A program made the position numbers and the translations under genes. This document shows, one piece after another, positions 24,039 through 45,268 of a stretch of DNA of 45,268 bases (position 1 is its first letter; each line of letters opens with the position of its first letter). The notes under the pieces are model-generated. The model made no database searches. It was not told the DNA's origin and saw only the letters and a program-made list of their open reading frames with translations. The DNA lies in contig DUVH01000021.1 in assembly GCA_012841145.1 (NCBI GenBank), positions 1-45,268 of the forward strand, written 5' to 3'. This stretch comes from Clostridiaceae bacterium. Lineage in GTDB: Bacteria > Bacillota > Clostridia > Saccharofermentanales > DTU023.

Positions 24039-26117
24039 ATGAAATTTACGACAGACAAAATCAGAAACATCACCGTGATGGGTCACGGCGGCGTCGGCAA
24101 AACAGCTTTTGTCGAAGCCGCGCTCTACAATGCAGGCGTGATCGACCGTATGGGCCGTTCGAACGACGGGAATACGGTGACCGACTTCGATGCGGAGGAA
24201 ATGCGCCGCGGGTCGTCGATCAGCACATCCGTCGCATGGTGTGAATGGAAGAAACACAAGCTCAACTTTATCGATACACCCGGTGATTTTGATTTTCTCG
24301 GTGAACAGATCCTCGGTATGTTCGCGGGCGACACGGCATTGATCATCATGTCGGCGAAAGACGGTTTATCTGTCGGCGCTGAAAAAGCGGTGCGCAATGC
24401 AGGAGGTGAGAATATCCCCGTCGCGTTCTTCGTCAACCGTATGGACGAGGCGAACGCCAACTTTGAGAAGACCGTGGGCGAATTGCGAGACGCCTATGGG
24501 GCGCGAGTTCTGCCGCTTTCGTTGCCGATCATGCAAAATGAGAAAATGACGGGAATCGTCGATGTGCTCAGCGCAAAAGCTTATTCCTTTACCGGGAAAC
24601 GCGGTGAGATGAAAGCGACGGATCTGCCGGACGCTCTGGCGGGAGTCGTCGAAGAGTACGCCGAGACGCTCAAGGAGCAAATGGCGGAGAACGACGAACA
24701 CCTCATGGAGAAATATTTCGAGGGTGAAGATTTCACGCCAGAAGAAGAAGCGTATGGAATGCGCAAAGCGATCGCTGCCGGATCCATCATGCCCGTCTTC
24801 GCCGGTTCGGCGCAAGAGAATTTGGGTGTCTCATTCGCGCTCGATTCCATAGCCAAGTTTTTCCCGACACCTACCGACGGTCATCCCGTTAAAGCAATTA
24901 ACAAGAACGGCGAAGAAATTCTTCTTCACTCCGAAACGGACGGCCCTCTTGCGGCATTCGTGTTCAAGACGTTCGTCGACCCCTTCGTCGGCCGTATCTC
25001 TCTGTTCCGCGTCTTTTCGGGCACGTTCAAAGATGAGGGCACCGTCTACAACGTGAATCAGGAGAAAGAAGAGCGCCTGATCGGCCTCAACTACCAGAAC
25101 GGCAGCAAGCAGACATCGACGGAAGAAGTCGTCGCCGGAGACATCGGCTCGATCGCAAAATTGTCGGACACGGTGACGCTCAATACGCTGACGATGAAGG
25201 CCGATCCTCTCAGGATCATCGCGCCTGAACTGCCGATCCCGTGCTTGACGCTCGCCATCTCGCCTGTCAATAAGGGCGATGAAGAAAAAATCATGCAGGG
25301 TCTCATCCGTTTGAAAGATGAAGATGTGACGTTTGATATCGTAAACGACCCCGAGACGAGACAGTTCCGTCTCTCGGGACTCGGCGAAGTGCAGCTCGAC
25401 GTGCTTTGCGCTCGACTGAAATCAAAGTTCGGTGTCGAGGCTGAGCTTAGCGAGCCGCGTATCGCGTACAGAGAAACGATTCGCAGACAAGTGCGCGTGC
25501 AAGGCAGGCATAAGAAACAGACGGGCGGCCACGGCCAATTCGGAGATGTGTGGATTGTCTTTGAACCCGGTTCCGGCACGTCGGAAGGCCTAGAATTCGC
25601 TGAAGAAATCTTCGGCGGAGCCGTTCCGAGAAACTACTTCCCCGCCGTCGAAAAAGGTCTCCAGGAGGCGATCGAAGAGGGTGTCCTCGCCGGCTACCCC
25701 GTCGTCAACCTGAAAGCGACGCTCGTTGACGGCTCCTACCACGCTGTCGACTCGAACGAACTCTCGTTTAAGCTCGCCGCACGGTTGGCGTACCGCGCCG
25801 GATTGCCGCAGGCCGATCCCGTTCTTCTCGAGCCGATCGACAAGCTGATGGTTCACATCCCCGACGATTTTCTCGGCGATATCATGGGTGACCTGAATAA
25901 GCGTCGCGGACGCATCATGGGCATTCATCCCGATACGATTCCGGGACACCAGATCGTGGAGGCGGAAGCGCCCAGAGCTGAGATTGCAAAATACGCAACC
26001 GACTTGAAGTCCATGACACAGGGTCGCGGCTGGTTTACGGTAGATTTTGTTCGCTACGAACAGGTCCCGCAGAATATTGCAGATCGCATTATCGCCGCCG
26101 CGCAGAGCGAAGAATAA
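24039..26117 (+). CDS. EF-G paralogue (translational GTPase, EF-G2-like)
   Basis: A 692-residue translational GTPase with full EF-G domain order. G1 is GHGGVGKTAF (about residues 15-24) in place of the AHIDAGKT of housekeeping EF-G, G3 is DTPGDFDF, G4 is NRMD and G5 lies at GSAQ. Domain IV has GGHGQFGDV and domain V ends with the MTQGRGWFTVDF block. This fits the second EF-G class found beside FusA in many Bacillota, whose function is less clear (translocation variants, ribosome recycling or stress). AAAGGGGGAAAAT precedes ATG. It stands alone between two terminator-like hairpins and tnaA, not next to rpsG or tuf. Confidence 0.92.
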   Translation: MKFTTDKIRNITVMGHGGVGKTAFVEAALYNAGVIDRMGRSNDGNTVTDFDAEEMRRGSSISTSVAWCEWKKHKLNFIDTPGDFDFLGEQILGMFAGDTALIIMSAKDGLSVGAEKAVRNAGGENIPVAFFVNRMDEANANFEKTVGELRDAYGARVLPLSLPIMQNEKMTGIVDVLSAKAYSFTGKRGEMKATDLPDALAGVVEEYAETLKEQMAENDEHLMEKYFEGEDFTPEEEAYGMRKAIAAGSIMPVFAGSAQENLGVSFALDSIAKFFPTPTDGHPVKAINKNGEEILLHSETDGPLAAFVFKTFVDPFVGRISLFRVFSGTFKDEGTVYNVNQEKEERLIGLNYQNGSKQTSTEEVVAGDIGSIAKLSDTVTLNTLTMKADPLRIIAPELPIPCLTLAISPVNKGDEEKIMQGLIRLKDEDVTFDIVNDPETRQFRLSGLGEVQLDVLCARLKSKFGVEAELSEPRIAYRETIRRQVRVQGRHKKQTGGHGQFGDVWIVFEPGSGTSEGLEFAEEIFGGAVPRNYFPAVEKGLQEAIEEGVLAGYPVVNLKATLVDGSYHAVDSNELSFKLAARLAYRAGLPQADPVLLEPIDKLMVHIPDDFLGDIMGDLNKRRGRIMGIHPDTIPGHQIVEAEAPRAEIAKYATDLKSMTQGRGWFTVDFVRYEQVPQNIADRIIAAAQSEE

Positions 26118-41712: not shown

Positions 41713-44466
41713 ATGAGGAAACAAAGTAGAATAATCGTCATGATTCTGGTGCTTGTAGCATCGCTTATGATGCCGGTCTTGCGACCTATCCCCAAAGTGC
41801 ATGCGGCAGATGTGCCGATCGATGAGACAAACTTCCCCAATGCAAATTTCAGAGAATTTGTGAAACATTATGATACGAATAATGATGGGATTTTGCAGCA
41901 AGCCGAGTTGAATGTAGTAACCTCAATGGACTGCGGTTTCCAAGGAATTACGGATATTACCGGCGTTGAGCACTTTGTAAATCTGGAAACTCTCTATTGT
42001 TATTACAATGGGATGGAATCTCTGGATGTTTCTAGTCTGACAAATCTTGTGACGCTGGACTGTTCTATTAATCAGCTAACCTCACTGGACGTGTCTAGTT
42101 TGATAAATCTTGAAACGCTTTCGTGTTGGAGTAACGAATTAACCTCACTGGACGTATCTGCTTGTGCAAATCTGAAAACTCTTAATTGTATCAACAACTA
42201 TGTGCTAGAGACATTGGTTGTAACCGGTTGCGATAATCTAGAAACTATTTGGTGTGCTACCAATAAGCTGTCGGAGCTTAATGTATCCGGATTGACAAAT
42301 CTTACGACTCTTTCGTGCTGGGATAACGAGTTAACCTCACTGGATGTGTCAGGTAGAGCTAATCTGAAAAACCTTTACTGTGACCAGAATAAGATTTCGG
42401 AGCTTATTTTGTCCGGCTGTGATAGTTTGGAAAAACTATCTTGTAAAGAGAATCAGCTAACTACTTTAGATGTATCCGGTTGTACAAATCTGGACACTCT
42501 TTTGTGTCAGGAAAATCAGCTGTCGGAACTTATCGTGTCCGGTCTAACCTTCTTGACTGAACTTAATTGTTACCTGAATCAGTTGAACTCACTGGACGTT
42601 TCTGGCTGCACGAGTCTGACAAAACTGCCGTGTTGGACTAACAAGCTGAAATCGATTGATGTGACCGGTTGTGTTAATTTGGAGTCTATTGATTGTTCTA
42701 CGAATATGCTAACAACTTTTGACGATTCCTCCATAAAGGGGTTATACTCCTTGGTTAAGTTAGATGATCTTCAATGCCATGATAACCAATTGACAACGTT
42801 GAACGTTACCCTTTTAGATGAATTGGGACTAAGTAGCCTCGGTTGTTCGGGCAATCAATTGACATCGCTAGACGCCTCTGACTGTTCAAATCTGGAATTT
42901 CTTAATTGTGAAGGAAACAGATTAGTTTCACTGGATGTGACTGGTTGTTCAAATCTGAATGGGCTCTATTGTGCTACTAACCGTTTGACATCATTGGATT
43001 TGTCTAACTGCCCAAATCTGGATTTTCTTGATTGTTCTGACAATCAACTGACGTCATTGGACGTATCCGGTTGCTCAGATCTATATGATCTTGACTGTTA
43101 CGACAATCAGCTTACGTCATTGGACGTATCTACCCTTAACGAGCTGATGTTTTTTAACTGTTCGGACAATCAGCTGACAACCCTAAACGTAGCAGGTTGT
43201 GCAAACTTAGCTGATCTTTCCTGCTCCAATAATCAGCTGACATCATTGGATGTTTCTGATTATACAAATCTAGAGTTTCTTTTTTGTTCGGGTAATCAGT
43301 TGGTCTCTCTGAAGGTACCCAAAAATCTGCTTAATCTTGCTTGTGACAAAAACCTGCTAACATCGCTCGATGTGTCCGGTTGTGAAGATCTGAATTGGCT
43401 TGACTGTTCTCGTAACCGGATAACATCGTTGGATGTATCAAACAGTGAAGGTTTGTTGGAGCTTTTGTGTTCTCACAATAATTTGGCGTCGCTGGACGTG
43501 TCTGCCTGCACATCGCTGTGGCAGTTAGATACTTGCCCGCAAACATTAGGCGTAATCGAAGCGATTCAAAACGGTGATCGACACGAGATTGATCTAAGTA
43601 ATCTTCCCAGGGTTCATGTCGCAAATATCAAGGCGGTTACACTTAAAAACGGCAAACCATTGCCGACAGGCTATAGTTATGATGAGACCAAAGGTCTGCT
43701 GACCATAGGGATCGGCATGGAACCGGCAGAACTCAAATATGTGTATGACACGAAAGCAGATAGGGATATCCTCGATCAGGATCCGTATGGAGAAGGATAT
43801 GATGACATATTCACATCCACTCCCGATATGGATGTCTACTTCACTGTTGAGCTTAAAGTGGCTCCGCCCGAACCAACAAAACCGGCACCTGAGCCTACGC
43901 CTACCACACCCGTCACGACCGCACCTGATCCTACACCCGCGCCCACGACGCCCTCTCCTGAGACTACACCCGCGCCCATGACGACCGATCCTTCACAGCA
44001 AGCGTTGGATGTTGAGATACCTGCGGCTTTGAACGAGGGCAATGATATCGATGCGGCAGGCGACAGCGTTGTGTATCATCAGGGTACATCCACGGGAGCT
44101 GCTTTCAGAGTGATCGGTGCGGAAGTCGCTGACTTCGTGCGTGTAGAGGTAAATGGCAAGGAGATACATAGCAGCAACTACACCGTGGAATCGGGCAGCA
44201 TTATCGTCAAGTTGAAGCAGGCCTATTTGAACAGTCTGCCGGTAGGTATGTACAAAATCGGAATCGTCACCTCCAAAGGTACCGGCATTAAGGACCTTGA
44301 AATTAAGGCTCCAACGCCTACTACCACTGAGGCAAAGAAGCCTGTGACGCCTGCGACAGGTGAAGCAAAGTTCACTCAGTTCTGGTGGTTGGCTGTGCTG
44401 CTGTTGGTGGTCGGTGCGGCACTGTTGCTGAGCTCTGTCTACCGTCGCAGGAGAGAGAGTCGATAG
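41713..44466 (+). CDS. Secreted, sortase-anchored leucine-rich repeat protein
   Basis: A 917-residue surface protein. Signal peptide: MRKQSR, hydrophobic IIVMILVLVASLMMPVL, cleavage near VHAAD. An EF-hand-like DTNNDGILQQAE block and an N-cap precede about 24 LRRs of about 21 residues, consensus NQLTSLDVSGCTNL with a Cys at two positions per repeat (residues about 75-620). Then a small conserved domain, a Pro/Thr-rich linker (about 715-760), another folded domain, and TPATGE followed by a hydrophobic segment and RRRRESR, a variant sorting signal. GAGGAG lies 8 bp before ATG. The type recalls internalin-like proteins of gut Bacillota and Bacteroidota; ligand unknown. Confidence 0.92.
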   Translation: MRKQSRIIVMILVLVASLMMPVLRPIPKVHAADVPIDETNFPNANFREFVKHYDTNNDGILQQAELNVVTSMDCGFQGITDITGVEHFVNLETLYCYYNGMESLDVSSLTNLVTLDCSINQLTSLDVSSLINLETLSCWSNELTSLDVSACANLKTLNCINNYVLETLVVTGCDNLETIWCATNKLSELNVSGLTNLTTLSCWDNELTSLDVSGRANLKNLYCDQNKISELILSGCDSLEKLSCKENQLTTLDVSGCTNLDTLLCQENQLSELIVSGLTFLTELNCYLNQLNSLDVSGCTSLTKLPCWTNKLKSIDVTGCVNLESIDCSTNMLTTFDDSSIKGLYSLVKLDDLQCHDNQLTTLNVTLLDELGLSSLGCSGNQLTSLDASDCSNLEFLNCEGNRLVSLDVTGCSNLNGLYCATNRLTSLDLSNCPNLDFLDCSDNQLTSLDVSGCSDLYDLDCYDNQLTSLDVSTLNELMFFNCSDNQLTTLNVAGCANLADLSCSNNQLTSLDVSDYTNLEFLFCSGNQLVSLKVPKNLLNLACDKNLLTSLDVSGCEDLNWLDCSRNRITSLDVSNSEGLLELLCSHNNLASLDVSACTSLWQLDTCPQTLGVIEAIQNGDRHEIDLSNLPRVHVANIKAVTLKNGKPLPTGYSYDETKGLLTIGIGMEPAELKYVYDTKADRDILDQDPYGEGYDDIFTSTPDMDVYFTVELKVAPPEPTKPAPEPTPTTPVTTAPDPTPAPTTPSPETTPAPMTTDPSQQALDVEIPAALNEGNDIDAAGDSVVYHQGTSTGAAFRVIGAEVADFVRVEVNGKEIHSSNYTVESGSIIVKLKQAYLNSLPVGMYKIGIVTSKGTGIKDLEIKAPTPTTTEAKKPVTPATGEAKFTQFWWLAVLLLVVGAALLLSSVYRRRRESR

Positions 44467-44501: not shown

Positions 44502-44547
44502 AAGGGGGGTGTCTCAAAAGAGCCCCCTCTTGTTGAGATACCCCCTT
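44502..44547 (+). terminator. Terminator of the LRR gene with alternative folds
   Basis: GGGGGTGTCTCAA (44505-44517) pairs with TTGAGATACCCCC (44533-44545). The left arm can instead pair with the inner GAGCCCCC across an AAAA loop. The 270 bp after it (44548-44816) show no supported gene. Confidence 0.7.
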
Positions 44548-44816
44548 GTACACGATCGTGCTGCCTCGTATTGAGACAGTCTCTCCTTTTAAGAGTCGAT
44601 TCTGGTCAAAATTTGAACTTAGAGCAGGATTTTATGGCTGAAGAGTCGGTCTTTATGCAAATTTGCGCGTTTATACACTATTTTCGACCTGTTTATACGT
44701 CTTTAGCGCTGTTTTATTGCTCAAAGTTCGATTTTTGATCAACTTAGCAGGCTAAGCTTCTTTTTAATATAAAGGGCACCTCATTTTTGACCAATTTCAC
44801 GTAATATTTCTGCTTA

Positions 44817-44854
44817 CTAAAGGAGGTGTCTCATTTTTGAGACACCTCCTTTAG
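44817..44854 (+). terminator. Perfect 17-bp terminator-type hairpin, target of the intron
   Basis: The arm CTAAAGGAGGTGTCTCA (44817-44833), loop TTTT, then the exact reverse complement at 44838-44854. The group II intron begins one base later, so the natural T-tail has been displaced or replaced. Confidence 0.85.
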
Positions 44855-44855
44855 G

Positions 44856-45268
44856 GTGTGCCGGGCATGGCGCTTCATATGGGGGTGCAAGTCCCCTGCA
44901 CGGGTAGGTAACGACCAAGTGCAAGCCAAGGACAAGGGTGTCCGTCGCGAGGCGGAATCTGAAGGAAGTCCAAGGCACAATTCCGGCCTGAGGAACACGA
45001 ACCGCATCAGGCATATCGAGGTTGGGCAAGGCTGCATAACAAGCTAAACCCAAAAGTTACCCGGAACCGAGAGTGTAAATGCGGCAGGTAAATGGAAGGA
45101 AAGATGAAGCGTCTTACCCCGGGAGGTCTCATCGACGAGGTAGTAGTAACAACGAACGATGAGAAGTCAGCCGAAGCCATAGTAGCAGGCGAGAGCCAGT
45201 GAAGGGCAGAACCAAATGAGGTGGAGGTCAATGAAGACTACCGACCGTGACGAGTTAAAACACAGCCA
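44856..45268 (+). mobile_element. Group IIC intron, 5' part, truncated by the window end
   Basis: The sequence starts GTGTGCCGGGCATGG, the GUGYG 5' splice-site consensus and start of domain I. It then shows AAGGGTGTCCGT, GGAATCTGAAGGAAG, CTGAGGAACACGAAC, GCATAAC and CTTACC with GGGAGGTCTC, all in the order I remember for the Oceanobacillus iheyensis group IIC intron. Domains I-III would fit in the 370 bases before the encoded protein starts. Insertion right behind a terminator stem is the known habit of class C introns. The 3' end lies outside the window. Confidence 0.9.
45229..45268 (+). CDS. Intron-encoded reverse transcriptase/maturase, first 13 codons
   Basis: ATG 45229 follows GAGGTGGAGGTCA and reads MKTTDRDELKHS before the window ends. 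Position inside domain IV of the intron is where the group II maturase (reverse transcriptase plus X domain; class C lacks an endonuclease domain) is encoded. The assignment rests on the intron context, not on the few residues seen. Confidence 0.6.

Follow-up and report, generated by a model that had tools for sequence, protein, structure and literature searches.

The 3′ end of a 45,268-nucleotide contig from a Clostridiaceae genome almost certainly carries the first part of an ordinary group II intron of class C (IIC), i.e. a retro-intron of about 1.9 kb lying behind a DNA hairpin, where it was presumably inserted in the ribonucleoprotein (RNP) manner. This contig (C41 of an assembly that comprises 1.57 Mb in 41 contigs and is 91% complete) is, in its full length, referred to as the window. 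The intron occupies its last 413 bases (44856–45268, + strand), spans domain I to the beginning of domain IV and then runs off the contig, and was recognized by Rfam matches, alignment to relatives, a consensus fold, a second copy in the same genome and a 127-base suffix identical to that copy. It is one more copy of an already known kind of intron and does not point to a new type of system.

The window ends within the 5′ part of a group II intron

The preliminary description of this DNA had placed the intron start at GTGTG behind a perfect stem, and this boundary was confirmed: GTGTG begins at 44856, one base past a 17-bp stem, with a single G separating the stem from the intron start (GTGTGCCGGGC). 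The domain order was examined through Rfam and an alignment of relatives. RF02001 (group-II-D1D4-3) matched 44941–45112 (+) with 121.8 bits (cut-off 32), and RF01998 (group-II-D1D4-1) matched 45136–45207 (+) with 52.9 bits (cut-off 35). In the consensus fold of a 16-sequence alignment (A1, the sequences picked by us; L050 and L061 were cut one base late and have a gap at column 1), both bases had changed with pairing retained at 38 of the 86 consensus pairs. The reading frame starting at 45231 (MKTTDRDELKHS...; 45231–45268, +), previously taken for the start of the reverse transcriptase (RT)/maturase, lines up with the starts of full-length relatives of ∼1.9 kb (MKVTESDKLKHRQ...) and so proved to be correctly read; its first 12 codons are present and the contig end cuts the remainder. 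Related loci numbered 53, mostly in Clostridia and Bacilli genomes, and the complete relatives, 17 loci with the YADD motif, measured 1896–1911 nt.

Hairpin shape is the common feature of the insertion sites

The target hairpin (44817–44854, +) consists of two 17-nt arms (44817–44833 and 44838–44854) that are 100% complementary and enclose a 4-nt loop. The fold of 44814–44860 reached −31.1 kcal/mol (z = −7.4), and none of 200 shuffles was as stable. The hairpin is a possible intrinsic terminator: its stem is strong, but no more than TTTAGG is left ahead of the intron, the T run falls inside the A–T end of the stem, and the hairpin was absent from the list of a consensus scan.

Insertion of IIC introns behind intrinsic terminators has long been known, as excerpts of PMC4424553, PMC8919778 and PMC7161350 relate, and the family examined here behaves likewise. 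The 50 bases upstream of 39 distinct 5′ boundaries (four of them re-found through a GTG[CT]GCC pattern; L020 and L025 lacking controls of their own) folded with a mean of −19.8 kcal/mol versus −9.0 kcal/mol for 1480 control 50-mers, and 27 of the 39 sites lay at or below the 5% level of the controls (−17.0) and 12 above it. Thus, the proposed targeting of a hairpin holds, both for the window, with its perfect stem one base upstream, and for most of the 39 family sites. Exon bases −4 to −8 were mostly T, as was, in the family, the base following the terminal CCGAT, where the one-base EBS3–IBS3 contact would fall; for the window copy, that exon would start past the contig end.

The further proposal that related terminators recur in the window, and may serve as additional sites, stood in part. 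One other related palindrome was found (44502–44549, strand unassigned; identified by its fold, and with 89% complementarity to the second arm of the target hairpin), with no intron behind it, whereas the GGTGTCTCA site at 24825, which is within an ORF, does not fold into a hairpin of this type. This palindrome is the first hairpin after the upstream gene for a leucine-rich-repeat (LRR) protein (GGGGGGTGTCTCAAAAGAG...). That gene (41713–44466) encodes a 917-aa internalin-like surface protein, with paralogues in contig C28 (74% identical across the final 199 residues). Genome-wide, GTGTCTCA...TGAGAC palindromes occur in four places including the window, plus one loose match in contig C1, and a search of the genome for intron sequence found an intron behind the window one only, so their role as further sites is weakly founded. 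The other two intron 5′ ends in the genome sit behind stems of unrelated sequence, and in another genome of the same order (G045) an intron follows a GGCTGTCTCA palindrome. What the intron sites have in common is the hairpin shape, not the palindrome sequence.

EBS1 and IBS1 are located by covariation

By scanning the complementarity of introns to their own versus swapped exons at 27 sites, we obtained a peak at intron positions 181–184 with exon positions −1 to −4. In the window, this places EBS1 (ATAA) at 45036–45039 (+), a segment that falls in the loop of a covarying hairpin, and IBS1 (TAGG, exon −4 to −1) at 44852–44855 (+). Over the 27 sites, pairing occurs at 86 of 108 positions (permuted mean 52.4); when a single one of the eight Acididesulfobacillus acetoxydans copies is kept, it occurs at 67 of 80 over 20 sites (permuted mean 42.7), and without both copies of the source genome, at 64 of 72 over 18 sites (permuted mean 38.5). 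No permutation among 10,000 reached the observed value in any of the three sets, a post hoc count in that the EBS1 position was itself chosen from 405 positions × 4 offsets. From the 39 sites, L018, L023, L024, L025, L033, L035, L038, L041, L044 and L045 were left out as mini, decayed, divergent or partly covered, and L021 and L039 (identified by elimination) were dropped for having <400 nt of intron. In the cryo-EM structure of the Eubacterium rectale intron, EBS1 was located at 184–187, pairing with the four nucleotides that precede the point of insertion (PMC10190682, excerpted text); the register found here agrees with it and is an independent confirmation drawn solely from sequences.

The window EBS1 pairs with its own 5′ exon at two of four positions and that of a second copy on contig C36 (CTAA) at one of four, while the remaining 25 introns pair at two to four. 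Because of these poor matches, the window copy is predicted to splice probably weakly at its present site, and the C36 copy likewise. The C36 site is occupied in a genome of the same genus (G009) as well, with an identical EBS1, so the C36 insertion was probably inherited.

Two other assignments were considered. CCAAAAG (intron position ∼195) appears by eye complementary to the T-rich exons and was not favoured by the own-versus-swapped scan. With the register shifted by one (intron 180–184, exon −1 to −5), the window pairs at four of five positions and one Heyndrickxia site at five of five, and a C36-type EBS1 would pair at all five with the window exon and with that of a shortened element on contig C27; this register was not adopted as the main one, as base 180, judged by position, would correspond to the base of the δ–δ′ contact in the E. 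rectale structure (PMC10190682, excerpted text).

The contig breaks at a repeated element, and a 3′ half lies on another contig

The second copy, 98% identical, ends contig C36 behind another stem. The window and C36 are identical over precisely their terminal 127 bases and diverge upstream of these; the contig therefore stops at 45268 because the assembly breaks at a repeated element, and the window illustrates how such repeats end contigs. At a repeat, de Bruijn assembly would leave a shared suffix of this length if k were 127, a value we infer. A chimera of the window and C36 introns was considered, since the C36-type EBS1 fits the window exon better, and was judged unlikely: differences between the two copies lie closer together than 127 bases, and G009 carries the C36-type EBS1 at the C36 site.

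Contig C7 starts inside an intron of the same family and encodes the last 273 aa of an RT/maturase with RVT_1 and GIIM domains. Its domain V matched RF00029 with 41.9 bits in a cmscan of the C7 stretch (cut-off 40, a margin of 1.9 bits), while an RF00029 search of the whole genome gave no match at E ≤ 0.001; the fold displayed domain V and, in domain VI, a bulged A, and the 3′ end reads CCTACCCGAT. These pieces of the same genome give an indirect answer to whether a maturase end and domain V, together with domain VI, follow beyond the window, their continuity with it being unproven. By our estimate from the lengths, the window and C7 pieces would be separated by ∼580 nt, and they may belong to different copies.

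The C7 RT fragment, in which no domain besides RVT_1 and GIIM was found, i.e. no endonuclease domain, had its best PDB matches in 7uim_D (E = 5.8e-67) and 6ar1 (GsI-IIC, 6.6e-65), and matched 6me0 (2.7e-17) and LtrA (5g2x, 6.4e-17) far more weakly. It scored 222 bits against TIGR04416, below the cut-off of 300, as a fragment would be expected to. The assignment to class C made beforehand is upheld by the proximity of this RT to IIC proteins (E about 1e-66 versus 6e-17 for LtrA), by the hairpin sites and by the EBS1 register.

A search of 39 genomes with the 917-aa LRR neighbour as query gave no clean empty site corresponding to the window insertion. The best match within the genus, on contig C136 of G009 (49–54% identity in pieces, orthology unproven), was not accepted as one; a gene that we read as an ABC transporter ATP-binding gene directly follows it, with no hairpins or intron. 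Contig C6 of G018 ends inside the LRR gene.

Elsewhere in the source genome (L017, contig C3:42000–47000), a 366-aa reverse transcriptase has as neighbours an Rfam RT-17 RNA (55.1 bits) and a 590-aa protein with, judged by eye from its letters, a lectin-like end. This locus is possibly a diversity-generating retroelement.

A gutted copy behind a permease gene

Behind the terminator of a permease gene on contig C27 (L010:1781–1934), intron bases 1–102 are fused to the last 52, giving an element of 154 nt that keeps both ends and is devoid of EBS1, the maturase and the greater part of domain V. Damage extends to its domain VI, the fold of the last 75 bases having a z of −1.2 versus −6.6 for the C7 piece. 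A 177-base query of 98 genomes and a junction-centred 97-base query of 188 genomes of the order (overlapping the 98) both retrieved the fusion from this contig only; a mini-intron family was rejected, given that each set, of 98 and of 188, contained the fused form in a single genome. Two of 39 genomes have a related gene without the element: in G001, a related permease gene has a terminator with no intron behind and a 3′ flank that does not align, and on contig C110 of G009, a terminator-like piece follows the related gene.

Because the fusion is confined to one of the 188 genomes searched, the C27 element is most likely a deletion relic. It is very improbable that introns of this lineage select their sites through the DNA hairpin, EBS1–IBS1 contributing little, and that the 154-nt form (5′ 102 nt, domain VI and 3′ end) was moved by a maturase and ribozyme parts acting in trans. 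If it was so moved, the C27 form would be a bacterial counterpart of the stripped group III introns found in Euglena. None of the papers found on non-autonomous or miniature group II introns describes, as far as titles and abstract openings tell, such an element in IIC introns; group III introns are named in excerpts of PMC4424553.

Other shortened or irregular relatives were observed. L045/L126 (G039, contig C93) is an intron of this family, 702 nt in length, that retains both ends and a domain V region and has no long ORF, and L090 is a shortened relative of 1017 nt. L025/L121 (G029, contig C129) is a decayed 5′ piece in which the first 47 nt are fused to positions 323–372, behind a hairpin just after an apparent tRNA gene. 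In L066 (1109–4914), the distance from the intron 5′ end to the nearest 3′ end is ∼3.8 kb, twice the usual, perhaps by an insertion inside the intron.

DISCUSSION

The intron in the window would continue into a full-length element, and the main competing reading is that it is a truncated or decayed fragment truly ending near the contig end. Truncation or inactivation is said to have befallen the majority of intron copies in bacteria (PMC4424553, excerpted text), and decayed relatives such as L025 and L090 exist; however, the exact match of 127 bases to C36 stops right at the contig end, and the ORF start is intact up to that end, which makes truncation unlikely, though of all the alternatives this is the one to be taken most seriously.

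Doubts about the hairpin and about the class carry far less weight. The four GTGTCTCA...TGAGAC palindromes would suit a dispersed repeat with which the intron became associated by chance, but other family members lie behind unrelated stems, mostly 0 to 8 bases away, and the hairpin signal extends across the 39 family sites, leaving a chance association exceedingly improbable. Equally hard to credit is an intron of another class (IIA, IIB or another RT class) that merely happens to follow a hairpin: the Rfam matches to domains I–IV do not by themselves name the class, but the E-values for IIC RTs are better than those for LtrA and 6me0 by almost 50 orders of magnitude, the C7 RT has the RVT_1 and GIIM domains only, hairpins stand at most family sites, and the four-base EBS1–IBS1 pairing lies in the E. 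rectale IIC register. We therefore retain the class C retro-intron.

By analogy with the pathway in the literature, the intron RNA and its endonuclease-free RT/maturase would form an RNP whose target is single-stranded DNA in the shape of a terminator-type stem-loop with a few adjoining bases, reading IBS1 through EBS1 and IBS3 through EBS3; the RNP would reverse-splice the intron behind the stem, and a DNA copy would then be made. The window copy may be mobile or spliced.

The present work adds a class C intron family in an uncultured Clostridia-related lineage. The closest solved RT to the C7 fragment is that of the E. rectale IIC RNP (7uim; PMC10190682), whose excerpted description likewise has a four-base EBS1 and an IBS1 at −4 to −1 behind a DNA stem; the host and the EBS1 letters differ, and the protein comparison covers the 273 aa of RT from C7. 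The Geobacillus stearothermophilus GsI-IIC enzyme (6ar1) is a class C RT as well, compared at the protein level only. The IIC introns of A. acetoxydans and other Clostridia (L048–L075) belong to the same family, with a length of ∼1.9 kb, the termini GTGYG...CCGAT and, in most, the maturase start MKVTES..KHRQ; the window intron shares ∼70% DNA identity with them in the 5′ region, and its lineage, unlike theirs, is without a stretch of ∼21 nt after intron position ∼305.
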